The translations under genes and the position numbers were made by a program. A DNA stretch of 64,000 nucleotides from Chloroflexota bacterium (GTDB lineage Bacteria; Chloroflexota; Anaerolineae; Aggregatilineales; Phototrophicaceae), in assembly GCA_011523545.1 (NCBI GenBank), contig WTGN01000045.1, forward strand, positions 41,367-105,366, read 5' to 3'. The notes under the pieces were generated by a model. It was not told the origin of the DNA. It searched no databases and saw only the letters and a list, made by a program, of their open reading frames with translations. Shown here in pieces: positions 3,854 through 63,750 of this stretch (its first letter is position 1; each line of letters opens with the position of its first letter).

Positions 3854-3951
3854 GGTGGCACTGTCCTTCCTATGCTGCCAATCTGGGAGAATATATCAAG
3901 TGCAATTGAGATGCAAAAAGACCACGTCACTTTTACTCGAATTTCAAAAGA

Positions 3952-3987
3952 TAGAACAAATGTACCACTAGTACAAGCGTGCGTCAA
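3952..3987 (-). promoter_or_regulatory. darG-darT promoter with overlapping inverted-repeat operator
   Basis: Read on the minus strand, TTGACG (3987-3982) and TACATT (3964-3959) are separated by exactly 17 bases, a good sigma-70-type promoter. The perfect inverted repeat TGTAC-TAGTG-GTACA (3961-3975) lies across the spacer and the -10 edge. A repressor binding there would block RNA polymerase. Whether DarG, the DarG-DarT complex or an unrelated repressor binds is not shown by the sequence. Confidence 0.6.
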
Positions 3988-4001
3988 GTAACATCGTCAA
4001 A

Positions 4002-37758: not shown

Positions 37759-40326
37759 ATGGTACAACCGGTCGCCCGGGTCAATGTCGCGCCCAAGCTG
37801 CCGCCTCAACTGGGGCGTTTGCATGAACTAACCTATAACCTCCGCTGGTCCTGGGATCATGAATCGATCGCCTTGTTTCGCCGCCTGGACCCCGACCTGT
37901 GGGAGGAGACGGGGCACAACCCGGAATGGATGCTGGGGCGGATGAGCCAGGAGCGCCTGAACGCCCTGGTGCACGACACCTCCTTCATGGCGCATTACGC
38001 CCGCGTCTGCCGCGCCTTTGACGAATACATGCGCGCGGGGAATACCTGGTTCGCGGCCAAATACGGCCAATTGCAGCGGCAGCCGGTCATCGCCTATTTT
38101 TCGATGGAATTCGGTTTGACTGAATGCTTGCAGAATTATTCCGGCGGCCTGGGCGTGCTGAGCGGCGATCACCTAAAGAGCGCCAGCGACCTGGGCATTC
38201 CCCTGGTCGGCGTCGGCATTCTTTATCAGGAGGGCTACTTTCAGCAATACCTCAACGCCGACGGCTTTCAGCAAGAGTCCTACCCGATCAATGACTATGT
38301 CAACCAGCCGGTGAAATTGCAGACCGATGCCGCCGGCCGGCCCATCAAGATCTCGGTGCCCATGCCCGGGCGCGAGCTCTTCGCGCGGATCTGGAAGGTG
38401 CAAGTCGGGCGCGTCTCCATTTATCTGCTCGATACCAATATCGATGACAACGCGCTGGAGGAAGATCGCAACCTGACCGATCGGCTATACGGGGGCGACC
38501 GGCGCACGCGCATTCGGCAGGAAATACTCATGGGCGTTGGCGGCGTGCGGCTGCTGCGCGCCCTCGGCATCGGCGCTGATATCTTTCACATGAACGAGGG
38601 GCACTCCGCCTTCCTGCTCCTGGAGCGCATCCGCAATTATATGCGCGATTATGGGCTTTCATTCGAGCAAGCCAAAGCCATGACCGCGGCCAGCAGCGTC
38701 TTCACCGTGCACACGCCGGTGCCGGCCGGGCAGGAGCGATTTGGCTTTGACCTCATCGACGAGCATTTCACCGATCTGATGCATGACTTGGGCTTGTCGC
38801 GCGACCAGTTCATCGATTTGGGGCGCGAGAATATGGGGCATTACGAGCTCTTTTCCATGTCCGTCATGGCCTTGAATTTGTCATCGGGCACCAATGGCGT
38901 GGCTCAGCTCCATGGTGAAGTCTCGCGCGATATGTGGAATTGGGTCTTCCCAAACGTGCCGGTGCATGAAGTGCCCATCCGCGCCATCACCAACGGCGTG
39001 CATGTGCAGACCTGGGTCAGCCAGGAGATGGCGCAGCTCTTCGATCGCTACCTGGACCCGGGCTGGCGCTCGGAAGAATCGAGGCCCGAAGTCTGGGAAG
39101 GCGTGGCCACCATCCCCGACGCCGAGCTCTGGCGGACGCATGTGCGGCGGCGCGAGCGTCTGGTCGCTTTCGCGCGCGACCGCCTGCGTGAGCAGCTGCA
39201 GCGCCGCGGCGTCTCGCAAACCGAGATCGAAGAGGCGGACGAAGTGCTGAACCCCGACGCGCTCACGATCGGCTTCGGCAGGCGCTTCGCCACTTACAAA
39301 CGGGCGACTTTAATCTTCCGCGATTTGGGGCGCCTGCGCAAGCTGGTGACGGACGCCGACCGCCCGGTCCAGTTCATCTTCGCCGGCAAAGCCCATCCGC
39401 ATGACAACGAAGGCAAGGAATTGATCCGCACCATCGTGAATGTGGCGCGCGACCTCGACTTCCGCAATTCAATTGTCTTCCTGGAAAACTACGATATGAA
39501 TGTCGCCCGTTACATGGTGCAGGGCGTCGATGTCTGGCTGAACAATCCGCGCCGCCCGAAAGAAGCCAGCGGCACCAGCGGCATGAAAGTCATCTACAAC
39601 GGCGGCCTGAATTGCAGCATCCCCGATGGCTGGTGGGCGGAGGCTTATCGTGGCGATATCGGCTGGTCAATCGGCCATGGCGAAGAATACCGCGAAGACG
39701 AATGGGCGCACCAGGACTACGTTGAGAGCCAGGCGCTCTACAATCTCTTGGAACAAGACATCGTGCCTTTGTTTTATCGCCAAGCGCGCGATGGGCTGCC
39801 GCGTGAATGGATCCGCCGCGTCAAACGCAGCATGAAGGCCTTGGCGCCGCGCTTCAACACCCATCGCATGGTGCAGCAATACACCGAAGAATTTTACATG
39901 CCGCGCTATCAGGTGAGCCGAGCGATGTCTCGCGCCAACTTCGCGGGCACGGCCGCCTTTGTCGAATGGCGGCGCCAACTCGATCATGTCTGGCATGAGG
40001 TGGCTGTGATGGATGTCGATATTCGCGATGGCGATGTCGAGATCGGCAGCAGCGCGACGATTCACAGCCGCGTGGCCCTGGGGCAGTTGTGCCCGCGCGA
40101 CGTCAAGGTACAGCTCTACTACGGCATGCTGGACAGCGCCGGCAACATCCGCGAGGGCCAGGCCGTCGATATGCGCATGAATTCAGGAAACGGCAACGGC
40201 GCCTACACTTATGCCGCGGACCATATCTTTCACAAGACCGGCAATATCGGCTTTTCGGTGCGCGTCTTGCCCTATCACGAATACCTGCATACCTCGATCC
40301 TGCCGCGCAAGATCGTCTGGGCTTAG
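37759..40326 (+). CDS. glgP: Alpha-glucan phosphorylase (GT35, TIGR02094-like)
   Basis: An 855-residue glycogen/maltodextrin phosphorylase of the form with an N-terminal DUF3417-like region, common in actinobacteria, archaea and Chloroflexota. It releases glucose-1-phosphate from alpha-glucan with PLP. Landmarks are FSMEFGLTECLQNYSGGLGVLSGDHLKSASDLG, NEGHSAFL, TVHTPVPAGQERF, the ITNGVHVQTW segment, FGRRFATYKRA and the PLP region KEASGTSGMKVIYNGG with DGWWAEAY. The C-terminal part carries a beta domain that may bind glucan. It completes a synthesis and breakdown set with glgA and glgC; a branching enzyme is not in the window. Confidence 0.95.
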   Translation: MVQPVARVNVAPKLPPQLGRLHELTYNLRWSWDHESIALFRRLDPDLWEETGHNPEWMLGRMSQERLNALVHDTSFMAHYARVCRAFDEYMRAGNTWFAAKYGQLQRQPVIAYFSMEFGLTECLQNYSGGLGVLSGDHLKSASDLGIPLVGVGILYQEGYFQQYLNADGFQQESYPINDYVNQPVKLQTDAAGRPIKISVPMPGRELFARIWKVQVGRVSIYLLDTNIDDNALEEDRNLTDRLYGGDRRTRIRQEILMGVGGVRLLRALGIGADIFHMNEGHSAFLLLERIRNYMRDYGLSFEQAKAMTAASSVFTVHTPVPAGQERFGFDLIDEHFTDLMHDLGLSRDQFIDLGRENMGHYELFSMSVMALNLSSGTNGVAQLHGEVSRDMWNWVFPNVPVHEVPIRAITNGVHVQTWVSQEMAQLFDRYLDPGWRSEESRPEVWEGVATIPDAELWRTHVRRRERLVAFARDRLREQLQRRGVSQTEIEEADEVLNPDALTIGFGRRFATYKRATLIFRDLGRLRKLVTDADRPVQFIFAGKAHPHDNEGKELIRTIVNVARDLDFRNSIVFLENYDMNVARYMVQGVDVWLNNPRRPKEASGTSGMKVIYNGGLNCSIPDGWWAEAYRGDIGWSIGHGEEYREDEWAHQDYVESQALYNLLEQDIVPLFYRQARDGLPREWIRRVKRSMKALAPRFNTHRMVQQYTEEFYMPRYQVSRAMSRANFAGTAAFVEWRRQLDHVWHEVAVMDVDIRDGDVEIGSSATIHSRVALGQLCPRDVKVQLYYGMLDSAGNIREGQAVDMRMNSGNGNGAYTYAADHIFHKTGNIGFSVRVLPYHEYLHTSILPRKIVWA

Positions 40327-40344
40327 GCTGCGCAGAGGGGAATT

Positions 40345-40370
40345 TGTAGGGGCGACTCGGTGAGTCGCCC
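40345..40370. repeat. Single-arm dispersed palindromic repeat, copy 3
   Basis: TGTAGGGGCGACTCGGTGAG... through GTCGCCC is nearly identical to one arm of the 30986-31057 element, with the GACTCGGTGAGTC palindrome intact. No inverted partner follows. It lies 19 bases after the glgP stop and could act as its transcript end. Confidence 0.8.
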
Positions 40371-40429
40371 AAAAACGCCAAACTATGTCTGGTTTATCGC
40401 GGCAGGCCTAACCGCCATCTCCCCCTAGA

Positions 40430-40516
40430 AGTTGGTGCTGGCGGGCGGGTATACAAAGGGCTCGCCCCGGCGTCGCTTCCCTCCATTGCAATGGGGGGAC
40501 CGAGGGGGAGACCTAG
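40430..40516. repeat. GC-rich inverted-repeat element before miaB
   Basis: Outer arms CTCCCCCT and AGGGGGAG enclose about 75 bases with an inner palindrome CCATTGCAATGG. A related but different element, with outer CTCCCCCT and inner CCCGCCAT-ATGGCGGG, lies near 48776-48838. Probably a non-coding mobile or structural repeat. Confidence 0.5.
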
Positions 40517-40522
40517 CGAGAA

Positions 40523-40551
40523 TTGACCCGCCCGCCACCATCGACTAGAAT
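40523..40551 (+). promoter_or_regulatory. Sigma-70-type promoter of miaB
   Basis: TTGACC (40523-40528) and TAGAAT (40546-40551) are 17 bases apart, each one mismatch from consensus. Transcription would start near 40558, about 30 bases before the miaB ATG. Confidence 0.6.
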
Positions 40552-40587
40552 ACGCCCGTAAGCGCCAAAAAGGTAAAGACAGATCCC

Positions 40588-41955
40588 ATGCAATATCACA
40601 TCTGGACCCACGGCTGTCAGATGAACGTGGCCGATTCGCAACTGCTGGCCTCCGAGCTGGAGAAACTGGGCCATAGCGCCGCCGCCGACGGCGATGACGC
40701 GGACATTATGATTGTGAACACCTGTGTCGTGCGGCAGAGCGCCGAGGACAAGGGGCTGGGGCGCTTGCAGCTTCTGGGCAAAATCAAAGAAGCGCAGCCG
40801 GACAAAGTGATCGGCGTCATGGGCTGCATGGTCGGCGTGCGTGATCCGCTCTGGATGCGCCAGCGCCTGCCCTACGTCGATATCTTCATGCCGCCGTCGG
40901 ATCCGGCGCCGATGGTCAATTTCCTCAAGGAGCGCCGCGCCGAAGCCGACGCGCTCGAGATGGAGGCGGAAGCGCGGACGCAGCGAGACGCGCTGCAAGA
41001 CGGCGAGCTCCTGCTGCCATTGCGCGAAAGGGGACAACTGGTCAGCGCCCATGTGCCCGTTGTCTACGGCTGTTCCCACGCTTGCACCTTCTGCATTATC
41101 CCCTTCCGCCGTGGCGTAGAGCGCAGCCGGCGGGTGGGCGAAATTGTAGCGCATGTGCGCAGCCTGGCGGCTCAGGGTGTGAAAGAAGTGACGCTGCTCG
41201 GGCAAATCGTCGACCGCTACGGGGTCGATATCCCCGACGGCCCGGACCTGGCCGATCTGCTGCGCCTCGTGCACGACGTCCCCGGCATTGAGCGCATTCG
41301 ATTTCTCACCAGCCATCCCAATTGGATGACGGAGAAACTCTTGCGAACGGTCGCCGAATTGCCGCGCGTGATGCCGCATATCGAAGTGCCGATCCAAGCT
41401 GGCGACGACGACGTTTTGGCGCGGATGCGGCGCGGCTACACCGCCGGTCAGTACCGCCGGCTCGTGAGCAAGATTCGGCATATTATCCCGCAAGTCGCGA
41501 TTCACACCGATATCATCGTAGGTTTCCCCGGCGAAACGCGCGCCCAATTCATGAAGACATACGAGATTTTGCAAGAGCTTAAGCTCGACAAAGCCCATCT
41601 GGCGCGCTACAGCCCGCGGCCGCAGACGGTCAGCCAGCGGCGTATGGAAGACGATGTGCCGGATGCGGAAAAGCGCGAGCGCCTTCGAATGCTGGAAGAC
41701 TTGCAAGCCCGCGTCGTCGCCGAGATCAACGCGCGGCAGCTCGGTCAAATTGTGACTGTCCTAGTTGAAGCGGAACACAAGGGCCGCTGGCGCGCGCGAA
41801 CGCCGCAGAACAAGCTGGTCTTCTTTGAAGCCGAGGGCGAATGGAAGGGCAGGCTGGCCCAAGTTGAAATCACCTGGACCGGCCCGTGGAGCATGCAAGC
41901 GCGCCTGCCCGTGAAGCGGACGGAGGCACATCCGCCGCTCATCCTCGCCGGTTGA
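40588..41955 (+). CDS. miaB: tRNA-2-methylthio-N6-dimethylallyladenosine synthase
   Basis: A radical-SAM methylthiotransferase of 455 residues that adds the methylthio group to i6A37 of tRNAs. It has the N-terminal UPF0004 domain with its own cluster Cys residues (THGCQMNVADS, VNTCVVRQSAE, GVMGCMVG), the radical-SAM cluster motif YGCSHACTFCIIP (C-x3-C-x2-C), the methylthiotransferase core (THPNW-like LTSHPNWMTEKL) and a C-terminal TRAM domain. The stop overlaps the next ATG by one base. Confidence 0.94.
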   Translation: MQYHIWTHGCQMNVADSQLLASELEKLGHSAAADGDDADIMIVNTCVVRQSAEDKGLGRLQLLGKIKEAQPDKVIGVMGCMVGVRDPLWMRQRLPYVDIFMPPSDPAPMVNFLKERRAEADALEMEAEARTQRDALQDGELLLPLRERGQLVSAHVPVVYGCSHACTFCIIPFRRGVERSRRVGEIVAHVRSLAAQGVKEVTLLGQIVDRYGVDIPDGPDLADLLRLVHDVPGIERIRFLTSHPNWMTEKLLRTVAELPRVMPHIEVPIQAGDDDVLARMRRGYTAGQYRRLVSKIRHIIPQVAIHTDIIVGFPGETRAQFMKTYEILQELKLDKAHLARYSPRPQTVSQRRMEDDVPDAEKRERLRMLEDLQARVVAEINARQLGQIVTVLVEAEHKGRWRARTPQNKLVFFEAEGEWKGRLAQVEITWTGPWSMQARLPVKRTEAHPPLILAG

Positions 41956-42686
41956 TGAAAGCGCCTTTCCGCCGAGTCGCGATACAACTGGCCTGGCGTT
42001 TGCTTTGGGGCGGCATTTGCCTGAGCGCGGCTGCCTGCAATCTTCAAGGGCGCGCAGCCGACTCCGCTCAAAACGAACCAACCAATACCCCGGCCGGACC
42101 GCCCACAATACGCATTGAATCGCCCAATGAAGGCGCTGAATACGTCATCGGCGAAGAAATCCTCGTATCGGTGCTGGCCGCGGACAGCATCGGCGTCAAC
42201 AGCGTTCAGCTTTACGTAGATGACCAGATCGTCCGAACCGTTTCCTCCGAGTCCTTGCAGGGCGACCTGACATTGCAGGCAATCCTCAATTATGTGCCCC
42301 AACGCGCCGATATTGGCGTCGTCAGTTTACACGCCGTCGCCTACCGCGGCCCTGTCGTCAGCGAGCCAGATGAGATCACCGTAGTCGTGCGCGAATCGCA
42401 TTCGCAGGTAATCGCCACGCCCGTGCGACAATCCAACGTGCCCTTCATACCCAATGACGGCGTCTGCCGCGCCTTGGTCAATGTCAATCTGAACTTCCGC
42501 ACCGGGCCAGGCACCCGCTTCCAGATCATCACCGTGCTCGGCAGCGGCACCCTGGCGCCGATCACCGGCCGCAACAGCGCCCATAGCTGGTGGCGGCTGG
42601 ATGTTGACAATCGCGTCGGCTGGGTCAGCGGCGATTTCACTTCGGAGTACGGCGATTGCAGCCGGGCGCCGGTGGTCGCCGGTTGA
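41955..42686 (+). CDS. Lipoprotein-like protein with Ig-like and SH3b domains
   Basis: A 243-residue exported protein. The N-terminus has a hydrophobic segment ending LSAAACNLQG, a possible lipobox. A beta-rich Ig-like domain follows (IRIESPNEGAEYVIGEEILV to ITVVVRES). The C-terminal part is an SH3b domain (VNLNFRTGPGTRFQIITVLGSG, WWRLDVDNRVGWVSGDF), which usually binds cell-wall glycans or peptides. The ATG overlaps the miaB stop (TGATG), so it is probably expressed with miaB despite an unrelated role. Confidence 0.85.
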   Translation: MKAPFRRVAIQLAWRLLWGGICLSAAACNLQGRAADSAQNEPTNTPAGPPTIRIESPNEGAEYVIGEEILVSVLAADSIGVNSVQLYVDDQIVRTVSSESLQGDLTLQAILNYVPQRADIGVVSLHAVAYRGPVVSEPDEITVVVRESHSQVIATPVRQSNVPFIPNDGVCRALVNVNLNFRTGPGTRFQIITVLGSGTLAPITGRNSAHSWWRLDVDNRVGWVSGDFTSEYGDCSRAPVVAG

Positions 42687-42788
42687 CCGACAATCCATCG
42701 AACCAGCGGCGCTGCCAAAGACGCGAGGACGGCGATGGAGAAAACTGCGCGAGAAGCGCGCCGTTTGGTCGCCGCTCTCAAGCGATTG

Positions 42789-42797
42789 TGCTAAAAT
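42789..42797 (+). promoter_or_regulatory. Candidate extended -10 element for the gene at 42837
   Basis: TGCTAAAAT fits TG-n-TATAAT with one change. The ATG is 40 bases beyond it. No clear -35 hexamer. Confidence 0.3.
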
Positions 42798-42836
42798 CGT
42801 GACTATCGTTCCTCGAGTAACACGCGAGCAAGCGCA

Positions 42837-44786
42837 ATGTCCATGGCCATCAAGCGGATCATGCTGGTCACGCGCAATGTGGCATTTGCCATCGATGTCA
42901 AGCGCGCCTTGGAAGCGCTTGGCGAATACAGCGTGACTGCCGTCGCCGATGTCCGCAATGCCATCGAAAGCCTGCGCGATCATCCGCAGCATCTGCTGCT
43001 GCTTGATACAGCAAACTTGTCCATTTCACCGGAAATCATGATCGAGATGGTCCGCTCGCGGCGGGAGCGGCTGGCGATTGTTCTCGCGCCCGATTCGCCG
43101 GATACGCAGGAGCTCGCCCGTCGATATCGCTTGAGCGGCGTCGTCGACATACCGGTGATGGCGCGCAGGCTGATGCCGATCCTGGATGCCGCTCTGCAAG
43201 AATCCGCCGAAGCCCTGACGGATACGAAGCAAACGCCCACAATCGATGTCGGTGAGGACACGATATACATCGAGTCCCTGGTTGATGACCTGGTTGAAGA
43301 AGAGTTGGCGCTAAATTATACGCGGCGTCGGCTGCAAGCCTCGTATGAACTCTTGCACCCGCGCGGCGCGGACGAGGCGGCGCCGGGAGCGAAACCCACG
43401 CTCGAAGTCCTGGTCGAGCCCGACGAAGAAGGCGATACCATCCGATATCAATTCGTCCGGGACGATGATGCGCTCGCGTCCACGACGACGCAGCTTGCGA
43501 GCGCCGAACTCGATGAAACGCCGATCGCGACGGGCAGCGCCAATGATACTGTACGTGACTTGGCGAATTCTATCGCAAGCGATCGCCCGGCTGGGCCGGC
43601 GGCTCTTGATGTCAGCCCGCCAGGCGCCGCCGAAGACGCGAACCTTGAAGACAGCGCGGCATTTCAAGATATGCTTGGCGCCCTTTTGGACGAGAGCACG
43701 GCCCTCGAAAACTTGACGCTGGAATCACTCTTTGACACCACGCGCGAGTTGCCCGGCGCGCTCGGCGCCGGCGTCGTGCCCGCCTGGCTGCGCGAGACCG
43801 AAAAATTCATTGATGAACCGAGCTTCCTGTCTGAGATCGCGGAAATGGCGGAGGAGCTGGATATACCTGAGAGCGTTGGCGAGACGACTTCGCCCGCCGT
43901 GGTGGATGAGCCGGCTGATGCGGAAGCTGAAACGGAACCTGCTCCCGCGCCTGCTGAAGAGACGGATGCAGCAACCGGCCAGCCCGACGCCGAGCGTGCA
44001 AGCGAGCCAGCGCGCACGCCGATTTGGAGCCGCAATGAAGATCCCGCGCTCGCCCAGCTTGCCGTCACGATGACGCAGATGATGACCGATTTGACCGCTG
44101 ATGCGACCGTCTTGACGCGCGGGGATCAGATCGTCGCCTTCTCCGGCGAGTTGCCGCTCGATGAATTCCGCGCTCTGCGCCGCGCCGTTGGCGACGATTG
44201 GACCGCCGAAAGCAGCACATCCCGCATTCGCTTCATCACGCCGCCTGCGGCCGGGCGGGATTACATGCTCTACTCGCGCGGATCGGTGGCCGGCTACTCC
44301 TTGACCCTTGTTTTCAGCGGCGGGCGCCAGCTTCGCGAGATCCGGCGGCAGGGCGACCGCATGCTGCGGGCATTGGACAGCGCCCCGGTCGAAGAGAGGC
44401 CGGCGGAGGCCGCCCCGCCTGAGGCAGCCCAGTCGCGGCAGCCTTTCGCCTTCGTCTGGATGGTGAATGATCCATCTCGTCTCTTGCGTAAGCAGGTGGC
44501 CGAGCAATTGGTGTTCTGGCTGGAAGTCCAACTCAACAGCCTGAACTGGAAGATTCATCGGCTGGATGTGCACCATGACTTCATATATTTGAGCGCCGAT
44601 GTGCCCGGGCGCGTCTCGCCGGACGCCCTAGTGCGCACAGTGATGGACCGCGCGCGCGCAATCGCCTGCTCGGAAGACAAAGCCCTGCCCCAAGAGCTCT
44701 GGGCGGATGCCTACCTCGTGCTGCAACCGGGGCGCGGCATGAGCGAACGGGAGCTGCAGCGCTTCCTGCATTTCGCCCGCGCCTGA
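42837..44786 (+). CDS. Receiver-like, roadblock-like protein with a transposase-like (Y1-fold) C-terminal domain
   Basis: A 649-residue protein of unknown role. Residues 1-125 resemble a receiver domain (KRIMLVTRNVAFAIDVKRAL, LLLLDTANLS, AIVLAPDSPDTQEL); the phospho-acceptor position looks like D58 in LLDT, but the set of acidic residues is incomplete. Residues about 125-400 are acidic and low-complexity. Residues about 400-510 resemble a roadblock/LC7 domain (TVLTRGDQIVAFSG...GYSLTLVFSGG). Residues 533-649 follow the outline of IS200-type Y1 transposases (FAFVWMVNDPSRLL; VHHDFIYLSADVPGRVSPDALV; LWADAYLVLQPGRGMSERELQRFL), but the HUH metal motif reads D-F-I and the Tyr position is Phe, so no nuclease activity is expected. 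The domain calls beyond REC are inference. Confidence 0.6.
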   Translation: MSMAIKRIMLVTRNVAFAIDVKRALEALGEYSVTAVADVRNAIESLRDHPQHLLLLDTANLSISPEIMIEMVRSRRERLAIVLAPDSPDTQELARRYRLSGVVDIPVMARRLMPILDAALQESAEALTDTKQTPTIDVGEDTIYIESLVDDLVEEELALNYTRRRLQASYELLHPRGADEAAPGAKPTLEVLVEPDEEGDTIRYQFVRDDDALASTTTQLASAELDETPIATGSANDTVRDLANSIASDRPAGPAALDVSPPGAAEDANLEDSAAFQDMLGALLDESTALENLTLESLFDTTRELPGALGAGVVPAWLRETEKFIDEPSFLSEIAEMAEELDIPESVGETTSPAVVDEPADAEAETEPAPAPAEETDAATGQPDAERASEPARTPIWSRNEDPALAQLAVTMTQMMTDLTADATVLTRGDQIVAFSGELPLDEFRALRRAVGDDWTAESSTSRIRFITPPAAGRDYMLYSRGSVAGYSLTLVFSGGRQLREIRRQGDRMLRALDSAPVEERPAEAAPPEAAQSRQPFAFVWMVNDPSRLLRKQVAEQLVFWLEVQLNSLNWKIHRLDVHHDFIYLSADVPGRVSPDALVRTVMDRARAIACSEDKALPQELWADAYLVLQPGRGMSERELQRFLHFARA

Positions 44787-44882
44787 CCGGGCCATTTTGA
44801 TCCGCCAGATTCGCCTGTAACATCACCGCGCCATCGGCTATACTCGCCTCACGGTTCATCCTATTTTCACCGAGTCTCGATC

Positions 44883-47675
44883 ATGGCCTCTCGCCCCGTG
44901 CTCTATCTCATCGACGGCCACGCCCTGGCCTACCGCTGGTATTATGCGTTGCAACGCGCAGACCTTTCTACGTCATGGGGTGAAAGCACTAGTGCCGTCA
45001 CCGGTTTTTTTACTAGGTTGCTTGATGTTTATGAGAATCGGCAAGCCGATTATATTGCAGTTACGTTTGACGATGGATTGAGTGGTCGCGAGGAGATCTA
45101 TCCCGATTACAAGGCAAACCGATCGGAGATGCCGTCGGATTTGGCGAGCCAATTCGAAAGGATCCGTGAACTAGTAGATGCCTTCAACATCCCGCAGTTA
45201 ACGATGTCCAATATGGAAGCGGACGATGTCTTAGGGACCATTAGTCGACAGGCAGTTGATCAAGGTTGGGACGTGATTATTGACACGGGGGATCGCGATA
45301 TTCTTCAGTTGGTTGGACCTCACATTCGAGTACAGCTTCCAGGAAAGCGCGGCAACGTAAAGATATACGATGTTGAAGCTGTCAAAAAAGAGTACGCGCT
45401 TGAGCCAGAGCAGCTTATTGATCTTAAGGCACTTGTTGGCGACTCTTCAGATAACTTCAAGGGAGTTCCTGGCATTGGTGCAAAGACGGCACCTGCCCTT
45501 TTACTGGAGTATGGAGACTTAGACGGAATATACAAGAATGTTGATAGCATCAGTGCGCGGATACGGAACAAATTGGTCGCGAACAAAGAGTTAGCGTATC
45601 TTTGCCGAGAGCTAGCAACAATCAAGAGAAACTTGGATATTCGGCTTGATTTGGATTCAAGCAGTTTGCAATTTGAATTGAAGAATGTAGAAGATGTCAT
45701 AACCAAGTTGGAGTTCGGCGGCACGAGACGCCAGCGGTTGATTAAAGTTTACGAAGATCAGCATAGTGACTTGGCTGAGAGCCGTCTTGTAAATGCACAT
45801 GATGTCATCGAAACCGCAATTGTGCGCACACACAGCCAGCTTAGGTCTCTGGTACACGAATTGAATTCGGCAAAGCTGATCGCATTCGACACCGAGACGA
45901 CAGGCATTGACCAAATGTCTGCGAAACTTGTAGGCATTTCGTTGGCTGTCGAGGAGAACATTGGATATTACGTGCCAGTGGGACACGGTAGAGTTTATGA
46001 CAAAGCGCAGATAGAAATGTTTGAGCACTCCGCAGGCGACCAGTTACCGTTGGATGCGGTCATCGAAGCCTTACGAGATCCAATGGAAAATCAAAACATA
46101 CCCAAAACTGCCCATAATGCCGTCTACGATTGCATGATACTTCGACGATACGGGATTAACGTGGCGCCGATCGTATTTGATACGATGTTAGCCGAGTGGA
46201 TTAGCAACCCGACCAGCAGATTTCTTGGTCTTAAGGCCTTGGTAGCTGAACGGCTAGAAATACAAATGACGGAAATCGCAGAGTTGCTGGGTAAAGGTCA
46301 GCAACAAACGACGATGGACAAGATTGAAATTGACAAGGCGGCTCCGTACGCTGCCGCCGACGCGACGATGACGTTTAGACTGGTTCAACCGCTGCGAAGC
46401 GAATTGCAGGAAGCAGAACTATATAGGTTGTACAAGTCACTGGAACTGCCGCTTATCCCAATCGTCGCCAACATGCAATATCGTGGCGTGTCGCTGGATG
46501 TAGATCAGCTGAATCAGTTGAGTGCCGGCTTGACAGCAGATATCGCGCCCTTAAGAGACTCAATATTCGATGAAGGCGGCGTCGGCGAATTTAATTTGAA
46601 TAGTCCGAGGCAACTTAGCAAAGTGTTGTTTGATGACTTACGATTGCCGACGCAGGGCTTGGATAAGACCGGGAGTGGCTATTATTCGACCGACGTCACT
46701 ACCTTGAATGCCTTACGCGGTGAACACCCAATAATTGATTTGCTTGTTATGTATCGAGAGTTATTCAAGCTAAAGACGGCGTACGCCGACGCGTTGCCCA
46801 AGTTGGTGAATTCTCATACTGGCCGACTCCACACCAAGTATAACCAAGCGGGACCGCCGACTGGTCGCTTTAGCAGCAGCGATCCCAACCTGCAACAGAT
46901 TCCAATCCAGACTGAACGCGGGCTCGAAGTGCGGCGGGCCTTTGTGGCGCCGCCCGGCTACGTCTTGCTGGCCGTCGATTACAACCAGATCGAACTGCGC
47001 GTGATGGCGCATATCAGCGAGGACGCCACATTGATTGACGCTTTCCATCGAGGGCAGGATATCCACCAGGCGACGGCGGCGGCGGTCAGCGGCATTGAGC
47101 CGGACGACGTTACCTACGAGCAGCGCAATTTCGCCAAGCGGGTCAATTTTGGCTTGATGTATGGCATGGGCGCTTTCCGCCTGGCGCGCGACAGTGACTT
47201 GACGCTGCCGGAAGCGGAAGAATTCATCGCCACATACTTTGAGCGCATGCCCGGCGTCAAGGAGTATATCGATCGCACGAAAGCCTTCGTCTGGGAGAAC
47301 GGTTTTACCGAGACGCTCTACGGGCGCCGCCGGATCTATCCAGCGATCAAGGCGAATGGCAACCGGCGCAGCACCGCTGCCGAAGAACGCGCCGCCATCA
47401 ATATGCCGATCCAGGGCACAGCCGCCGATATTCTGAAACAGTCGATGATCAATCTCTCTGAGCGCCTCAAGCGCGAGCGCTATGACGCGGCGATGATCCT
47501 GCAGGTGCATGATGAGCTCGTCCTGGAAGTGAAAGAAGACGAGCTCGGCCCGGTCAAGGCGCTTGTCGTCGAGACGATGGAGTCCGCCTTTCCCGATGGC
47601 CGGCCTCTGCGCGTGCCGCTGCGCGCGAACGCCAGCTGCGGCGTCAACTGGCGCGATATGGAGGACATCGTTTAA
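44883..47675 (+). CDS. polA: DNA polymerase I (with 5' nuclease and 3'-5' exonuclease domains), mosaic base composition
   Basis: Full-length Pol I of 930 residues. The N-terminal 5'-nuclease/FEN domain (IDGHALAYRWYYAL, VTFDDGLSGREEIYPDYKANR, GDSSDNFKGVPGIGAKTA) is complete. The proofreading domain keeps its motifs: FDTETTGID (Exo I), AHNAVYDCMIL (Exo II) and PYAAADATMT (Exo III), so it looks active. The polymerase domain has motif A VDYNQIELRVMAHIS, motif B RNFAKRVNFGLMYGMG and motif C QVHDELVLEV. The first 80 bases and everything after about 46900 are GC-rich like the rest of the window, while roughly 44960-46890 is AT-rich with different codon choice. The switch points fall in conserved coding segments and the frame is intact, which suggests allele exchange by homologous recombination. 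Confidence 0.95.
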   Translation: MASRPVLYLIDGHALAYRWYYALQRADLSTSWGESTSAVTGFFTRLLDVYENRQADYIAVTFDDGLSGREEIYPDYKANRSEMPSDLASQFERIRELVDAFNIPQLTMSNMEADDVLGTISRQAVDQGWDVIIDTGDRDILQLVGPHIRVQLPGKRGNVKIYDVEAVKKEYALEPEQLIDLKALVGDSSDNFKGVPGIGAKTAPALLLEYGDLDGIYKNVDSISARIRNKLVANKELAYLCRELATIKRNLDIRLDLDSSSLQFELKNVEDVITKLEFGGTRRQRLIKVYEDQHSDLAESRLVNAHDVIETAIVRTHSQLRSLVHELNSAKLIAFDTETTGIDQMSAKLVGISLAVEENIGYYVPVGHGRVYDKAQIEMFEHSAGDQLPLDAVIEALRDPMENQNIPKTAHNAVYDCMILRRYGINVAPIVFDTMLAEWISNPTSRFLGLKALVAERLEIQMTEIAELLGKGQQQTTMDKIEIDKAAPYAAADATMTFRLVQPLRSELQEAELYRLYKSLELPLIPIVANMQYRGVSLDVDQLNQLSAGLTADIAPLRDSIFDEGGVGEFNLNSPRQLSKVLFDDLRLPTQGLDKTGSGYYSTDVTTLNALRGEHPIIDLLVMYRELFKLKTAYADALPKLVNSHTGRLHTKYNQAGPPTGRFSSSDPNLQQIPIQTERGLEVRRAFVAPPGYVLLAVDYNQIELRVMAHISEDATLIDAFHRGQDIHQATAAAVSGIEPDDVTYEQRNFAKRVNFGLMYGMGAFRLARDSDLTLPEAEEFIATYFERMPGVKEYIDRTKAFVWENGFTETLYGRRRIYPAIKANGNRRSTAAEERAAINMPIQGTAADILKQSMINLSERLKRERYDAAMILQVHDELVLEVKEDELGPVKALVVETMESAFPDGRPLRVPLRANASCGVNWRDMEDIV

Positions 47676-47691
47676 GCGACTGGCGGACCTG

Positions 47692-47700
47692 TGTTATACT
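47692..47700 (+). promoter_or_regulatory. Extended -10 promoter element of argF
   Basis: TGTTATACT matches TG-n-TATAAT with one change and lies 49 bases before the argF ATG. The -35 region (TTAAGC at 17 bases) is weak. Confidence 0.4.
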
Positions 47701-47749
47701 GCTGGTTCTCGCATTTTGAGATCTCGAATTTGAAAGACAGTGCCCTCAC

Positions 47750-48667
47750 ATGAAACATTTTCTGGAACTGGCCAGCTTCTCGACCGCTGAACTGCACGCG
47801 CTATTGGAGTCGGCGCTGCGTTTGAAAGCGAAGTGGCAGGCGGGCGGCAACGAACCGGTGCTGCGGGGCAAGACCCTCGGCATGATTTTCCAGAAGCCGT
47901 CCTTGCGCACGCGCGTCTCTTTTGAAATGGCGATGAAGCATCTGGGCGGCGACGCCATCATGCTGGGCCCGCAGGAGATCGGCCTGGGCGTGCGCGAAAG
48001 CATACCCGATGTCGCGCGCGTACTCTCCAGCTATGTGGATGGCATCATGGCGCGGGTTTACGATCATGCCGACGTTGTCGAGTTGGCGGCGCACTCAAGC
48101 GTGCCCGTCATCAACGGCTTGAGCGACGGCTACCATCCCTGCCAGGCTTTGGGCGACATGCTGACGATTCATGAGCATTTTGGCGCGCTGGATGGTTTGC
48201 GCCTGGCCTTCGTCGGCGATGGCAACAACGTGGCCGCCTCCGTTGCCTTGGCCTGTGCTCACTTTGGCGTCAGCTTCAGCATCGCGACGCCGGAAGGCTA
48301 TGAGATGCAGCGGCCGGTGCGTGAGCAGGCCTTTGGCATCGCCGGTCGCAATGGTTCTGTGCTGGAAATGTGCACGCGTCCGCAACTGGCTGTGGCCGGG
48401 GCTGATGTCGTCTATACCGATACCTGGGTCAGCATGGGGCAGGAAGCCGAAGCGGCCGAGCGCGCCAGCGAGTTTGACGCCTATCAGGTCAACCAAGAAT
48501 TGTTAGGCGCCGCCAAACCGAAGGCGATTGTGATGCACTGCTTGCCGGCCCACCGCGGCGATGAGATAACGGACGCGGTCATGGATGGTCCCCAGTCGAA
48601 AATCTTCGAGCAGGCGGAAAACCGCCTCCACGCCCAGAAGGCGATACTGGCGCGCCTGCTGAAATAG
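47750..48667 (+). CDS. argF: Ornithine carbamoyltransferase
   Basis: OTCase of 305 residues that makes citrulline from ornithine and carbamoyl phosphate in arginine synthesis. The carbamoyl-phosphate loop KPSLRTRVSFEMAM, the NGLSDGYHPCQALGDMLT segment, FVGDGNNVAASVA, the ornithine loop DTWVSMGQE and HCLPAHRGDEITDAVMDG are all present. No other arginine gene lies nearby, so it is probably transcribed alone from the promoter just upstream. Confidence 0.96.
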   Translation: MKHFLELASFSTAELHALLESALRLKAKWQAGGNEPVLRGKTLGMIFQKPSLRTRVSFEMAMKHLGGDAIMLGPQEIGLGVRESIPDVARVLSSYVDGIMARVYDHADVVELAAHSSVPVINGLSDGYHPCQALGDMLTIHEHFGALDGLRLAFVGDGNNVAASVALACAHFGVSFSIATPEGYEMQRPVREQAFGIAGRNGSVLEMCTRPQLAVAGADVVYTDTWVSMGQEAEAAERASEFDAYQVNQELLGAAKPKAIVMHCLPAHRGDEITDAVMDGPQSKIFEQAENRLHAQKAILARLLK

Positions 48668-49034
48668 CGCCCTCTCCCCGCGACACCCCTGTCTAATTCA
48701 AAGAACGCGACGGTTGTAGACACATGCGCGACGATGCCGCTGCCCATGCATACAACCTTGCATTGCGCCGTCTAGCTCCCCCTCCCTGACTCGTCGGATG
48801 CCCGCCATAGAGATGGCGGGAGGGGGCCGGAGGGTGGGGTGCGCTGACGACCATTACTTCGCGCGCGCCGGCAGGCACATCGCGCCGCTGCAAGTGACTG
48901 GTGATTCGTCGGCGCAGGCCTGTATTAGGTGTTACAGTGTGATAACCAAGACAGCATCAGCGAGTTTATACAAGTACATAAACAATCGGCCGGCTGAACC
49001 TGCCTGCCGATTTGCTTGAGGCGGAAGGTCTGCG
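48668..49034. other. 367-base intergenic region between argF and cdaA with a GC-rich inverted-repeat element
   Basis: No gene is seen. The stretch includes CTCCCCCTCCCT (from about 48776), a perfect hairpin CCCGCCAT-AGAG-ATGGCGGG (48801-48820) and a G-rich tail (AGGGGGCCGGAGGGTGGGG), like the element before miaB. The promoter for cdaA should lie in the last 150 bases, but I do not see a strong match. Confidence 0.6.
48801..48820. repeat. Perfect hairpin within GC-rich repeat element
   Basis: CCCGCCAT pairs with ATGGCGGG around AGAG. The flanks (CTCCCCCTCCC before, GGGAGGGGG after) extend the inverted character, giving a longer imperfect cruciform. It could also act as the argF transcript end. 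Confidence 0.55.
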
Positions 49035-49910
49035 GTGGAACAGATTCTCCTCATTTTGGGAAGCGTGCAATGGCGCGATGTCGTTGATATCGCCATCGTG
49101 ACGACCCTCTTTTACAGCATCACATTTATGTTTCGCGGCACGCAGGCGGTCGCGCTATTTCGTGGCATCGCATTGGTGGTGATCGGCTTGATTTCAGTGG
49201 CGGCGCTCTTCCGCCTGGAAGCTTTAAGCTGGCTGCTGGCCAACAGCTTGACCGCGCTGGTCATTGCCATCCCGGTGATCTTCCAGCCGGAGATTCGGCG
49301 TGTGCTGGAACGCTTGGGGCGCGGGGCGTTTCTGGGCACGCGCCTGGCGCCTCAGGCGGTGCGTGATTCGGTGATTGACGAGATCTGCGCCGCCGCGGAC
49401 AAGCTGTCGGACCGGCGGCACGGCGCGCTCATTGTTATGCAGCGCAACAGCAGCTTGCAAGAATTCATTCGCACCGGCATTCCATTGGACAGCGTCGTGA
49501 CGGCTGACTTGCTGGTCACGCTCTTTTGGCCGCGCACCGAACTGCATGATGGCGCCGTCATCATCGACAATGCCGGGCGAATCGCATCCGCTTCCAGCGT
49601 CTTGCCTATCACCGCCAGCCGCAACCTGCCCAACCCCAACCTGGGCACAAGGCACCGGGCGGCGGTCGGCATAAGCGAAGTCGGCGATTCGCTCTGTGTG
49701 ATCGTTTCGGAAGAGACCGGCAAAATATCCGTCACCAACGCCGGGCGCATGATTCTCGATTTGGACGCGCAGCGGCTCAGGCTCATACTCAGCGCCTATT
49801 ACGGTCCAGCTGAACAGACAGTCGTATCCTTTCGTGGCCGACTGCGCGAGATGCTGGACGACTTGCGGCTGCGCGTTCAGACGCGCGGCAATCAGCGGGC
49901 ACAGACATGA
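49035..49910 (+). CDS. cdaA: Diadenylate cyclase CdaA (c-di-AMP synthase)
   Basis: A membrane-bound diadenylate cyclase of 291 residues that makes c-di-AMP from two ATP. Three hydrophobic segments (residues about 15-80) precede the DAC domain, which has the conserved ELHDGAVIIDNAGRI (DGA motif) and LGTRHRAAVGISE (RHR motif). The start is GTG, preceded by GGCGGAAGG. Its last bases overlap the YbbR-domain gene by 4 bases. c-di-AMP usually controls potassium and osmolyte balance and cell-wall state. Confidence 0.95.
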   Translation: MEQILLILGSVQWRDVVDIAIVTTLFYSITFMFRGTQAVALFRGIALVVIGLISVAALFRLEALSWLLANSLTALVIAIPVIFQPEIRRVLERLGRGAFLGTRLAPQAVRDSVIDEICAAADKLSDRRHGALIVMQRNSSLQEFIRTGIPLDSVVTADLLVTLFWPRTELHDGAVIIDNAGRIASASSVLPITASRNLPNPNLGTRHRAAVGISEVGDSLCVIVSEETGKISVTNAGRMILDLDAQRLRLILSAYYGPAEQTVVSFRGRLREMLDDLRLRVQTRGNQRAQT

Positions 49911-51211
49911 TCGTGAGGCTATCAAAGTCGGACATGGCCGGCAACTTGCTCTGGCTGGCGGTATCGCTTCTCCTGGCGTCGGGCGTCTGGTACATCGCGG
50001 TGACATCGGCGGACCCCATCGGCAAGAGGAGCTTCCGCAGCATACCGGTGCAGATTGTGCCAAGCAAAACGGCGGAGATGACCAACAGCCGTACGCGCAC
50101 CGCGACCGTTACGATTCAGGGCTTGCAAACCACGATATCCGCTCGGCGCGCCGAAGACATCGTGGTGCGCGCCGACCTTTCGCGCCTGGGGCCGGGAACG
50201 CACACTGTTCCGCTCGAAGTGAGCGTGGCGCAGCCGGATGCCGATTCCGCGCGCCGGTTGGTTGCGCTTGTGCAGCCATCGCAAATCATCGTTGAACTGG
50301 AACCGCTGGAATCGCACGAAAAGAAGATTGTCATCGAGCTGCTGCGGGCGCCGCCCATCGGCTTCAGGCATGACGACCCGCTGCCGAATATTACTGAGGT
50401 CCTCGTGAGCGGCGCGGCGAGCCGGGTTGGGCAGGTTGTGGCCGCGCGCGGCGAGCTTGATCTATCCGCCAGCCGCAATCCGATTGAAGCTGACCTGCGT
50501 CTGTACGCGGTTGACGCGGACGGGGGCCGTATCGCCGATGTTGAGTTGGATCCGCAGACGGTCACAGTTTCGGTCAATATCGCGCGGCGCGATGATATCC
50601 GTCAGATCGCTGTCCGGCCTAATGTCTTGCTGGATACGCTGCCGGCCGGCTTCACATTGAAGAACCAGAGTTACGACCCCGAATCGATCTTCGTCAGCGG
50701 CGCGCCCGAGCAGTTGGGCAACATTTCCGATACGCTCTTCACCGAGCCGATCAGCCTGGTCGATCGCCAAGAGGGCTTTGACATCACCGTGCCCGTGCGC
50801 TTGCCAGGCGATGATCTATTTGTCATGAGTGGAGACAATAATGTAACCGTCTCAATCGAAATCATTCCGATCATCGATTCGCGACAGATCGACAATATCG
50901 AGGTCGCGCATATCGGCTTGGAAGGCGATTATTCGGTGTCAATCGTGCCGAAGGCTGTATCAGCTATCGTCACTGGTCCGGTGGTGATGGTCGATGTTCT
51001 GACAGTGGAGCACATTCAGGTCGTGGTCGATCTCAACGGGCTATCGCCGGGCGTATACGACCGCGAACCGTCAATCTCCATCAACCAGGGTGAACTTGGC
51101 GGGGAAAATGTCTCCCTGTTGCCCGATGTGGTCAATGTGGAAATCGCGCTGCCCGAAGAGGAATCGCAAGAGGCGGACGGGGCGGCAACGCCGTCATCGG
51201 TCAACGGCTAG
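49907..51211 (+). CDS. cdaR: YbbR-domain protein, CdaR-like regulator of CdaA
   Basis: A 434-residue protein with one N-terminal membrane helix (LLWLAVSLLLASGVWYIAV) and an extracellular part made of YbbR-type repeats, seen as recurring units such as VPLEVSVAQPD, PSQIIVELEPLESHEKKIVI and PQTVTVSVNIARRDD. In Firmicutes the adjacent CdaR regulates CdaA, and the coupled ATGA overlap supports the same pairing here. Ends in a short Glu-rich tail. Confidence 0.9.
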   Translation: MIVRLSKSDMAGNLLWLAVSLLLASGVWYIAVTSADPIGKRSFRSIPVQIVPSKTAEMTNSRTRTATVTIQGLQTTISARRAEDIVVRADLSRLGPGTHTVPLEVSVAQPDADSARRLVALVQPSQIIVELEPLESHEKKIVIELLRAPPIGFRHDDPLPNITEVLVSGAASRVGQVVAARGELDLSASRNPIEADLRLYAVDADGGRIADVELDPQTVTVSVNIARRDDIRQIAVRPNVLLDTLPAGFTLKNQSYDPESIFVSGAPEQLGNISDTLFTEPISLVDRQEGFDITVPVRLPGDDLFVMSGDNNVTVSIEIIPIIDSRQIDNIEVAHIGLEGDYSVSIVPKAVSAIVTGPVVMVDVLTVEHIQVVVDLNGLSPGVYDREPSISINQGELGGENVSLLPDVVNVEIALPEEESQEADGAATPSSVNG

Positions 51212-51364
51212 ACGCCCGCTACCTACCGCGCCGGAATCGGTCCAGTTTACCAATGGCTGATGGCGCGGCCGGCGGCCATCCGCGCCTTATCCCTATCTAA
51301 TCCGACAGCTGCCGACTACAATGCTGCGGCATTCTCTCTATAGGCGGCGGGGCCAATTTGAACC

Positions 51365-52765
51365 GTGTCTCGTAAACCAATTGTCGCCCTCGTTGGGCGC
51401 CCGAACGTCGGCAAAAGCACGCTCTTTAACCGGCTCGTGGGTGAGCGGCTTGCCGTCACGCATGAGATTCCCGGCACAACGCGGGATCGATTGCATGGCG
51501 AATCCTTCTGGAACGGCGTCACTTTTCAGGTGGTCGACACCGGTGGCATTGAGGTCTACCAGCCCCGCGGTTCGCGCGATGAATCGCCCTTGGCCGAGGG
51601 CAGCAGAGACTTTGTCAAGGAGATCATTGAACAGGCGCTGATCGCCATCGCCGACGCCGATGCCATCATTCTGCTGGTCGACGCGCAAACCGGCGTGACG
51701 GCCGCGGATGAAGCGATCGCCGAGATTCTGCGCCGCTCCGCCAAGCCGGTTCTGGTCGCCGCCAACAAGATTGACGACAAGGCGCATGAAGCCGAAGCCT
51801 TCGATTTTTACGCGCTCGGCTTAAATGTCATCGGCATCAGCGCCATTCACGGCTTGGGCGTGGGTGATCTGCTGGATGCACTGGTGCAGGCCTTTGGCAG
51901 CTTGCCGCCCGAACCCGGGGACGACGAAGCGGACGATCATTTGAAGATTGCCATCGTGGGACGCCCCAACGCCGGCAAGAGCACGCTGCTGAACAAACTC
52001 ATCGGCGAGGACCGCGCCATCGTGAGCGATGTCGCCGGCACCACGCGCGACGCCATCGACACCGAAATCAGTTATTTCGCTGAGAAGGTGACATTGATCG
52101 ACACGGCTGGCATACGCCGCCGCGGGCGCATAGAAGCGGGCGTGGAGCGATACAGCGTCATCCGCGCGATGAAAGCGATCGAACGCGCCGATGTCGCCCT
52201 GCTGGTCATCGACGCCAATCTGGGCGTGACCGAGCAAGATGAACACATCGCCGGTTTCGTCATTGAAGCGTACAAGAGCCTGGTCATCGTCGTGAACAAA
52301 TGGGACGCGGTTGTCAAGGACGCCTTCACCATGAGCGCCTTTACCGACAATATCCGCGACCGGCTGCACTTCGTGCGTTACGCGCCCATCATCTATATCA
52401 GCGCCTTGGGCGGGCAGCGCATTCATCAGGTGCTGGAGGCGGCTTACCGCGTCTGGGAGGCGCGTTTTCTACGTATGCCCACATCCGATGTCAATCGACT
52501 GCTGCGTGAAGCGGTCGAGCGGCACCCGCCCCATGCCAAGGGCACAAAACGGCTGAAATTCTTGTACGCGTCGCAGGTGCGCACCGATCCGCCGCTGATC
52601 CTCTTTCATGTTAACGATCCGACCCAGGTGCATTTCACCTACAAACGCTACCTGGAGAATCAGTTCCGCGCCGCTTACGAATTTGAAGGCACGCCGATAC
52701 GCATGAGTTTCCGCGCCAGAGAGAGCAGGCGCATGCCCGCCGTTGAGCAGCCGGGCGGCGAATGA
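51365..52765 (+). CDS. der: GTPase Der (double Era-like, ribosome assembly)
   Basis: A 466-residue GTPase with two G domains and a KH-like C-terminal domain. First domain: GRPNVGKSTLFN, PGTTRD, DTGG and NKID. Second domain: GRPNAGKSTLLN, AGTTRD, DTAGIRRRGR and NKWD. The KH-like part begins near residue 350 and includes LKFLYASQVRTDPPLILFHVN. Der assists maturation of the large ribosomal subunit. The start is GTG at 51365. Confidence 0.96.
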   Translation: MSRKPIVALVGRPNVGKSTLFNRLVGERLAVTHEIPGTTRDRLHGESFWNGVTFQVVDTGGIEVYQPRGSRDESPLAEGSRDFVKEIIEQALIAIADADAIILLVDAQTGVTAADEAIAEILRRSAKPVLVAANKIDDKAHEAEAFDFYALGLNVIGISAIHGLGVGDLLDALVQAFGSLPPEPGDDEADDHLKIAIVGRPNAGKSTLLNKLIGEDRAIVSDVAGTTRDAIDTEISYFAEKVTLIDTAGIRRRGRIEAGVERYSVIRAMKAIERADVALLVIDANLGVTEQDEHIAGFVIEAYKSLVIVVNKWDAVVKDAFTMSAFTDNIRDRLHFVRYAPIIYISALGGQRIHQVLEAAYRVWEARFLRMPTSDVNRLLREAVERHPPHAKGTKRLKFLYASQVRTDPPLILFHVNDPTQVHFTYKRYLENQFRAAYEFEGTPIRMSFRARESRRMPAVEQPGGE

Positions 52766-62300: not shown

Positions 62301-62373
62301 ATTGGTGTAGCCTGGGTCTGGCAGCCCGGATGGAAACGCAATTGTTGGCACGTGTTCATAAAGGAGCAGAGTC

Positions 62374-63750
62374 ATGAGCATCTCACGTAGAGAATTCTTG
62401 AAGTTGACCGGCGGGTCGGCTACGGCGGCGGCGATGCTGGCGCAGCTTGGCTATCTGCCGCCGGCGCTGGCCCAGGATGTGACCAATATCACTTTCGGCG
62501 GTTGGGGCGGCGTCGCCGAAGACGAAGGTGTTCTGGCTGCCATTGAAGTCTTTGAAGCCGAGAACACCGATCTCACAGTCGAGTGGCAGCATACGCCATC
62601 GGCCAGCGACTACTCGCGCGTTACCTTGACCAATATCGCGGCGGGCACTGCGCCGGACACCTCCTTCATTCGCTCCGACGACTACGAAACTTTTGCCACC
62701 AGCGGCGTCCTCATGGACATTACCGACCTCGTAAAGAATGACCCGCTCCTCGGCGCGCCTAACTATTTTATCGAGCCGCAAGAATCGACGCGCTGCGAGG
62801 TCAACGGTCGCTGGTACGGCATCGGCTCCACCTGGGTTGCCCATCACATCTATTACAACGCCGAAATATTCGATGAAGCAGGCATCGCGCCGCCCGGCTT
62901 CCAGGATGACGAAATCTGGGAATGGGATGACTTCCTCGCCATTTGCAACCAGCTCACCAAGGACAGCGGCGGCCGCCATCCCGATGACGCCGGCTTCGAC
63001 CGCGAGGATATTGTCCAATGGGCGGTGGATTGGTCGACATCGTGGTGGATGCCGCTAGCGGCCGCCGTGCACGCCAATGGCGGCGAGTTCATAGGTGAGG
63101 ACGGTCTCTGCGCACTAGATTCGCCCGAAGCGCTGGAAGCGATGCAGCGCGTCGCCGATCTGGTGCACATTCACCATGTCGCCCCACGCACCGCCTCTAT
63201 CGAGAGCCTCGGCATGAACAACACCCAGATGATCAATTCTGGCCGTTTGGCTATGGGCGTCGATGGCTCTTGGGCGCTATCGTGGATGAATCCGTCCCTG
63301 CTTGATGTGGCGATGGGCACGGGCGCGCTGCCGAAAATGGCGAAGCCCGCCAGCGTCATGCAAGCGCATTTCCACTCCGTGCTCGCTTCCACCGAGCATC
63401 CGGAACAAGCTTGGCGCTGGGTGCGCTTCCTGGCGACGCCTTTCTATCAAGAGCACTTCGCCAAGATCGGCTTGTGGATCCCCAACCAGAGCGCCATGCT
63501 CACGGAAGAGGGCTTGAAGGGCTGGGTTACCGAGGGCATCCATCCGACCAACTATTCGCAGTTCGCCACCGATTATCTGCCCAGGCATGGCGTCGCCGCA
63601 CATCTGCCGCCGGGTTGGATTGAAGCGCGCAACGATTACATCACACCGGCTTTCGAAGCGCTTACCAATGGTGAACAAGCGGAAGCTGTCTTCCCCGATG
63701 CCGTGCGACAAGCTAACGAAGTCTTGATGCTTGCGCGCGAGGGCATGTAG
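62374..63750 (+). CDS. Tat-exported sugar ABC transporter substrate-binding protein
   Basis: A 458-residue extracellular solute-binding protein. The signal MSISRREFLKLTGGSATAAA contains the twin-arginine motif S-R-R-E-F-L-K, and cleavage is likely after ALA-QD, so export is by Tat in folded form. The mature part has family-1 binding-protein features such as ALDSPEALEAMQRVADLVH and GRLAMGVDGSWALSWM. AAAGGAG precedes the ATG. A second, near-identical start follows 105 bases after the stop. Confidence 0.93.
   Translation: MSISRREFLKLTGGSATAAAMLAQLGYLPPALAQDVTNITFGGWGGVAEDEGVLAAIEVFEAENTDLTVEWQHTPSASDYSRVTLTNIAAGTAPDTSFIRSDDYETFATSGVLMDITDLVKNDPLLGAPNYFIEPQESTRCEVNGRWYGIGSTWVAHHIYYNAEIFDEAGIAPPGFQDDEIWEWDDFLAICNQLTKDSGGRHPDDAGFDREDIVQWAVDWSTSWWMPLAAAVHANGGEFIGEDGLCALDSPEALEAMQRVADLVHIHHVAPRTASIESLGMNNTQMINSGRLAMGVDGSWALSWMNPSLLDVAMGTGALPKMAKPASVMQAHFHSVLASTEHPEQAWRWVRFLATPFYQEHFAKIGLWIPNQSAMLTEEGLKGWVTEGIHPTNYSQFATDYLPRHGVAAHLPPGWIEARNDYITPAFEALTNGEQAEAVFPDAVRQANEVLMLAREGM

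Follow-up and report, generated by a model that had tools for sequence, protein, structure and literature searches.

A mosaic polA gene in a Chloroflexota bacterium with an AT-rich core that very probably stems from a diverged allele

The polA locus and its product

In this paper we describe a polA gene within a 64-kb stretch of DNA from a Chloroflexota bacterium. We refer to the whole stretch as the window and give all positions relative to it. The genome it belongs to is a draft of 4.54 Mb in 105 contigs with an estimated contamination of 4.4%. Its nearest named relatives are Chloroflexota/Anaerolineae MAGs, and the RHO, APA, COS and SB bin names of these relatives suggest that the bacterium probably lives in sponges. 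The closest sampled relative is G011, a Chloroflexota MAG (contig JAPPEU010000010.1, RHO1_bin_14) that is collinear with nearly the whole window at about 90% nucleotide identity. The gene, its parts and its flanks are the following.

37759..44882, + strand: native upstream flank (glgP, a miaB-like gene and a 649-aa protein), collinear with G011 at 83-94% identity per 500 bp
44883..47675, + strand: polA, DNA polymerase I of 930 aa, an open frame with 5' nuclease, 3'-5' exonuclease and polymerase
44883..44936, + strand: native 5' end of polA, codons 1-18, ending at LIDGHALAYR; GC3 0.75 (codons 1-28) and a close match to G011 up to the edge
44937..46925, + strand: AT-rich tract, very probably imported, about codons 19-681; nucleotide identity to G011 is 65.3% in the tract and 90.0% beyond it, pS 0.78 and 0.20
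46926..47675, + strand: remaining 3' stretch of the polymerase domain, native (VDYNQIELR, KRVNFGLMYG, VHDE); 92% nucleotide and 93% amino acid identity to G011
47676..52765, + strand: native downstream flank (argF, cdaA-like, ybbR-like and der), collinear with G011 at 86-94% identity per 500 bp

The polA product combines the three domains of a DNA polymerase I (5' nuclease, 3'-5' exonuclease and polymerase A) in a single chain, with PF02739, PF01367, PF01612 and PF00476 all scoring over their cut-offs. In an alignment of 11 sequences the acidic residues D11, D114, D115, D137, D139, D187 and D190 are invariant, as are D336, E338, D416 and D493, and also D699, K752, Y760 and D877 of the polymerase part. 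We take these residues to be catalytic in all three activities. The 5' nuclease and polymerase motifs furthermore align with those of Taq. An earlier note on this DNA had held that the frame and all nuclease, proofreading and polymerase motifs are intact, and the open 930-aa ORF with all its domains and conserved catalytic residues bears this out. A second family A polymerase gene was not found in the 4.54 Mb draft, and polA is apparently the sole copy. Because the genome holds no further polA that we could find, the mosaic protein most likely serves as the cell's functional DNA polymerase I.

Composition step and edges of the tract

Measured in 200-bp windows, the GC content drops from about 0.60-0.69 to a level of 0.40-0.52 in the stretch from ~44950 to ~46900, and then recovers to 0.57-0.63. 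Taken as a whole, the tract has a GC of ~0.48 and a GC3 of ~0.52, compared with ~0.60 and ~0.77 in its surroundings. Along polA itself, GC3 starts at 0.75 (codons 1-28), drops to 0.46-0.58 (codons 29-655) and rises again to 0.76-0.82 (codons 673-930). The core is lower than that of G011 at all three codon positions, with GC1/GC2/GC3 of 0.564/0.370/0.527 against 0.633/0.400/0.738.

We fitted the edges of the tract with a two-edge maximum-likelihood model of the comparison with G011, and give 2-lnL ranges. The 5' edge lies at 44937 (44926-44942) and the 3' edge at 46925 (46919-46931). The model gains 238 lnL units and fixes each edge within about 8 bp. The resulting tract of ~1,989 bp makes up about two thirds of polA. 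It spans the 3'-5' exonuclease completely, together with almost the entire 5' nuclease and the first section of the polymerase domain. Both edges are found next to conserved motifs, the 5' edge after LIDGHALAYR and the 3' edge 15-20 codons after GRFSSSDPNLQQIP.

These results largely agree with the earlier note, which had described a core of ~1.9 kb with its own codon style, switches at conserved motifs, and native ends of ~80 and ~780 bases. Sliding-window GC and GC3 confirm the drop, and the fitted edges lie close to the switches described there, next to or shortly behind the motifs. The native ends are also present, but their fitted sizes are smaller, at ~54 and ~750 bp.

Identity to G011 per 500 bp is 0.61-0.69 within the tract and mostly 0.83-0.95 around it; over most of the window it is about 0.88-0.94. 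Composition and identity shift together at the two edges, native sequence lies on either side, and it is this joint and sharp change that marks the gene as a mosaic allele. The phylogeny appears to change there as well. Compared with G011, the 3' part of polA has a dS of 0.23 and a dN of 0.026; in the core the silent sites are saturated (pS 0.78) and dN is 0.265. Since dS and dN jump together between the two parts, all kinds of site shift jointly. The core is far from G011 and the 3' part and flanks are near to it, and therefore the replacement would postdate the split from G011. When it took place, the two alleles already differed by about one third.

Other stretches of the window also differ from G011. 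Windows 9001-10000 and 62341-63729 have only ~75-78% identity in surroundings of ~90%, with a normal GC. The first sits in a gene for a 410-aa protein (8780-10012) and the second in a gene for a 458-aa, substrate-binding-protein-like product (62374-63750). They possibly reflect recombination with closer donors, or fast genes. In addition, a DarT/DarG-like toxin-antitoxin pair is found at 1923-3853 on the - strand (PADLOC, DarT E 2.3e-13 and DarG E 5e-61), on an AT-rich stretch (~2000-4000, GC 0.42-0.48) that is without a counterpart in G011.

Phylogeny of the polA parts

The earlier note had proposed separate phylogenies of the gene's parts as a check, and we built trees for the 3' part (codons 673-930) and the core (codons 31-650). 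The two parts appear to give different answers. The 3' part is sister to G011 (support 99/97), with 93% amino acid identity, and the core has at most 66% amino acid identity to anything. In the core tree the branch of our sequence has a length of 0.74 and is placed beside a ten-member clade that contains G011 (95/82). AU tests disfavour a core placed outside the whole genus (p-AU 0.028). They reject neither a core outside the genus when G128, the deepest member, is left out of it (p-AU 0.141), nor a single clade of the core and G011 (p-AU 0.246).

The core allele has evolved faster than any sampled member of the genus. Its mean identity to the outgroup, 0.496, is the lowest, compared with 0.529-0.563 for 31 genus members. 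The core also breaks 10 of the 144 columns that are invariant across the order, by eight substitutions and two insertions; by the same comparison, seven relatives break between none and three. Judged from these trees, the core appears to sit on a long and fast branch that arises inside this genus or immediately next to it.

Search for the donor

An order-wide search with the core returned a best match of 66% amino acid identity, from the same genus. Among full-length matches, other genera of the order reach at most 52%. The sampled genomes of the class gave no closer match, and the best value stays at 66%. In IMG/VR the core by itself had no match, and the best hit of a genus profile had 42%. 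Homologues from phages and plasmids are ~34% and ~35% identical to the core, respectively. The donor allele is thus absent from all collections searched (order, sampled class, phages, plasmids and IMG/VR), and because of this the import is something we infer.

Several candidate donors can be set aside on these results. A donor simply outside the genus is disfavoured by the AU test given above. Any sampled genome is too distant, with an order-wide best of only 66%, and no viral or plasmid sequence is close. A paralogue from the same genome can be discounted, as no other family A polymerase gene was found in the draft. G128 has an AT-rich polA but just 58% amino acid identity to the core. This genome (L147, an 8.5 Mb assembly) is the deepest genus member in the trees, and its polA GC3 is ~0.35 against ~0.7 elsewhere, so that base composition varies widely within the genus. 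For another genus member, G012 (93% complete), none of the searches gave a polA match, which is probably due to a gap in the draft.

A second mosaic and the rarity of such tracts

A new result of our analysis is a second AT-rich replacement in polA, in another species of the same genus (G001; L022 / G001:C98). Between edges at codons ~498 and ~833, GC3 is ~0.53 as opposed to 0.76 outside, and identity to the relatives of G001 is ~0.65 as opposed to 0.83-0.85. A common donor for the two tracts was rejected, since they are not sisters on their overlap. They are therefore probably separate events, and on the sequence comparison the replacement in G001 was probably independent of the one in the window.

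To see how common such steps are, we applied a GC3 segment scan with a log-likelihood ratio (LLR) score to the 74 polA genes of the order. The polA of the window scores 30.2 and that of G001 24.3, while the remaining 72 reach at most 8.8. As only two of the 74 genes score high, the step is beyond chance. In seven neighbour genes, compared across up to 24 species of the genus, we saw isolated low windows and no extended AT-rich, diverged tract. Local conservation at the four edges of both tracts lies at percentiles 0.95, 0.78, 0.68 and 0.98; for the last of these the value was taken at codon 840, although the fitted G001 edge is at ~833. That the edges lie in or near conserved stretches agrees with anchoring in short stretches of matching sequence, though four edges are little proof.

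We also scanned 907 long ORFs, from 1.46 Mb of the host genome, for GC3 steps. Here polA ranks tenth by raw score. In most of the ORFs above it, which run from stop to stop, the low-GC3 segment is terminal, and most of these higher scores were rejected as mosaics because the segment is mainly sequence upstream of the true start. Among those inspected, an Eco57I-like methylase is the sole gene above polA with a clear long coding mosaic, and a DUF1156 protein with a long GC3 mosaic is nearly equal in score. These two candidate mosaics are found at L257:1142-3583 and L273:2-2992 (contigs C7 and C23). In this 1.46 Mb sample, the clear mosaics among the inspected high scorers include no housekeeping gene apart from polA.

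Origin of the tract

We consider it very probable that ~1.99 kb of polA was exchanged, in frame, for the corresponding stretch of a distant allele. The earlier note had already read the gene as a product of recombination with a distant allele, and the switch of composition, identity and apparently also phylogeny at both edges speaks for this. Our analysis refines this reading in that it places the donor in or beside the same genus rather than far away.

The starting gene would have been a native polA collinear with that of G011. After the divergence from G011, codons ~19-681 would have been swapped in frame for a polA allele ~35% different in DNA. The donor would have been a lineage with more AT and a faster rate of evolution, one that belongs to the genus or borders on it and is absent from the sampled genomes. 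The ComEC and DprA families are present in the genome, and with them uptake of donor DNA would be the simplest first step. Homeologous recombination, anchored in conserved codons at each edge, could then have brought the tract into the gene. Loss of mismatch repair was rejected as the cause of so distant an import, given that the MutS and MutL families are both present.

There is also evidence against an import. The divergence of ~35% is above the limits of 23% (tested, PMC6382021) and 30% (quoted, PMC3139442) for recombination, MutS-like and MutL-like genes are present, the topology permits a native core (the query and G011 clade has a p-AU of 0.246), and the draft is in 105 contigs.

It is unlikely, though worth considering, that the tract came from a phage or plasmid copy of polA which was taken from the genus long ago, evolved fast and AT-rich, and recombined back. 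Such a reservoir would also account for G001, as the same gene is affected in two species, with both tracts near a GC3 of 0.52 and both on long branches. The broken invariant columns, including the two insertions, point the same way. Against this, no near viral or plasmid homologue was found (at most 42% in IMG/VR, ~34% in phages and ~35% in plasmids), and the two tracts are not sisters on their overlap. The lack of a viral homologue is weak evidence because the viruses of uncultured symbionts are poorly sampled. A broader idea, which we offer as speculation and think improbable, is that the polA of this genus is replaced time and again from a hidden reservoir of AT-rich, fast-evolving copies, possibly borne by phages or other mobile elements of these bacteria, at divergences beyond those thought recombinable.

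An assembly chimera, in which the polA of another organism was joined into the contig, is very unlikely. A metagenome-style draft in 105 contigs with 4.4% estimated contamination invites the question, but a chimera needs two false joins at homologous positions, in frame, between sequences ~35% different, and collinear native sequence extends for tens of kb to each side. A like tract is moreover seen in a separate assembly, that of G001.

Finally, a native core that changed very fast in place can be nearly discarded: the core tree puts the tract near its own clade (95/82) and a grouping with G011 is not rejected, but silent divergence would have to rise from a dS of 0.23 to saturation and replacement sites about tenfold, together with composition and between edges sharp to ~8 bp, and we know of no process that causes such joint change across 2 kb of one gene.

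Relation to known mosaic genes

In-frame replacement by a diverged allele, our preferred reading, makes the polA mosaic a known kind of event that is extreme in its divergence and recurrent in polA. The mosaic penicillin-binding protein genes of Neisseria and Streptococcus likewise carry diverged blocks inside an essential gene. Those mosaics are driven by drug selection and are ~20-25% diverged, whereas the polA tract is ~35% diverged. The mosaic housekeeping alleles of Campylobacter jejuni and C. coli share with polA an in-frame, homologous replacement of part of a housekeeping gene, a native remainder and a conserved function. Their donor is known and ~15% from the recipient (PMC3139442), unlike the ~2 kb polA tract, which is ~35% diverged and whose donor was not found in the collections searched. 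RecA-mediated import is quoted for up to 30% divergence (PMC3139442). In Bacillus subtilis, transformation was tested with DNA up to ~23% diverged, and homology-facilitated illegitimate recombination was invoked beyond 15% (PMC6382021). This route would admit diverged DNA through short matching stretches; the polA case, a 2-kb tract at 35%, lies beyond what was shown there.

Mosaic alleles are well known, usually between lineages ~15-30% apart, and polA is found here at ~35%. The surprise is that the tract exceeds both cited limits despite the MutS-like and MutL-like genes in the genome. A core gene such as polA would then be open to patching from unusually distant DNA. The gene is a natural case for testing the reach of homologous replacement, and for learning which parts of PolI still cooperate after an exchange. 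For this group, it also advises against relying on polA as the only marker gene.
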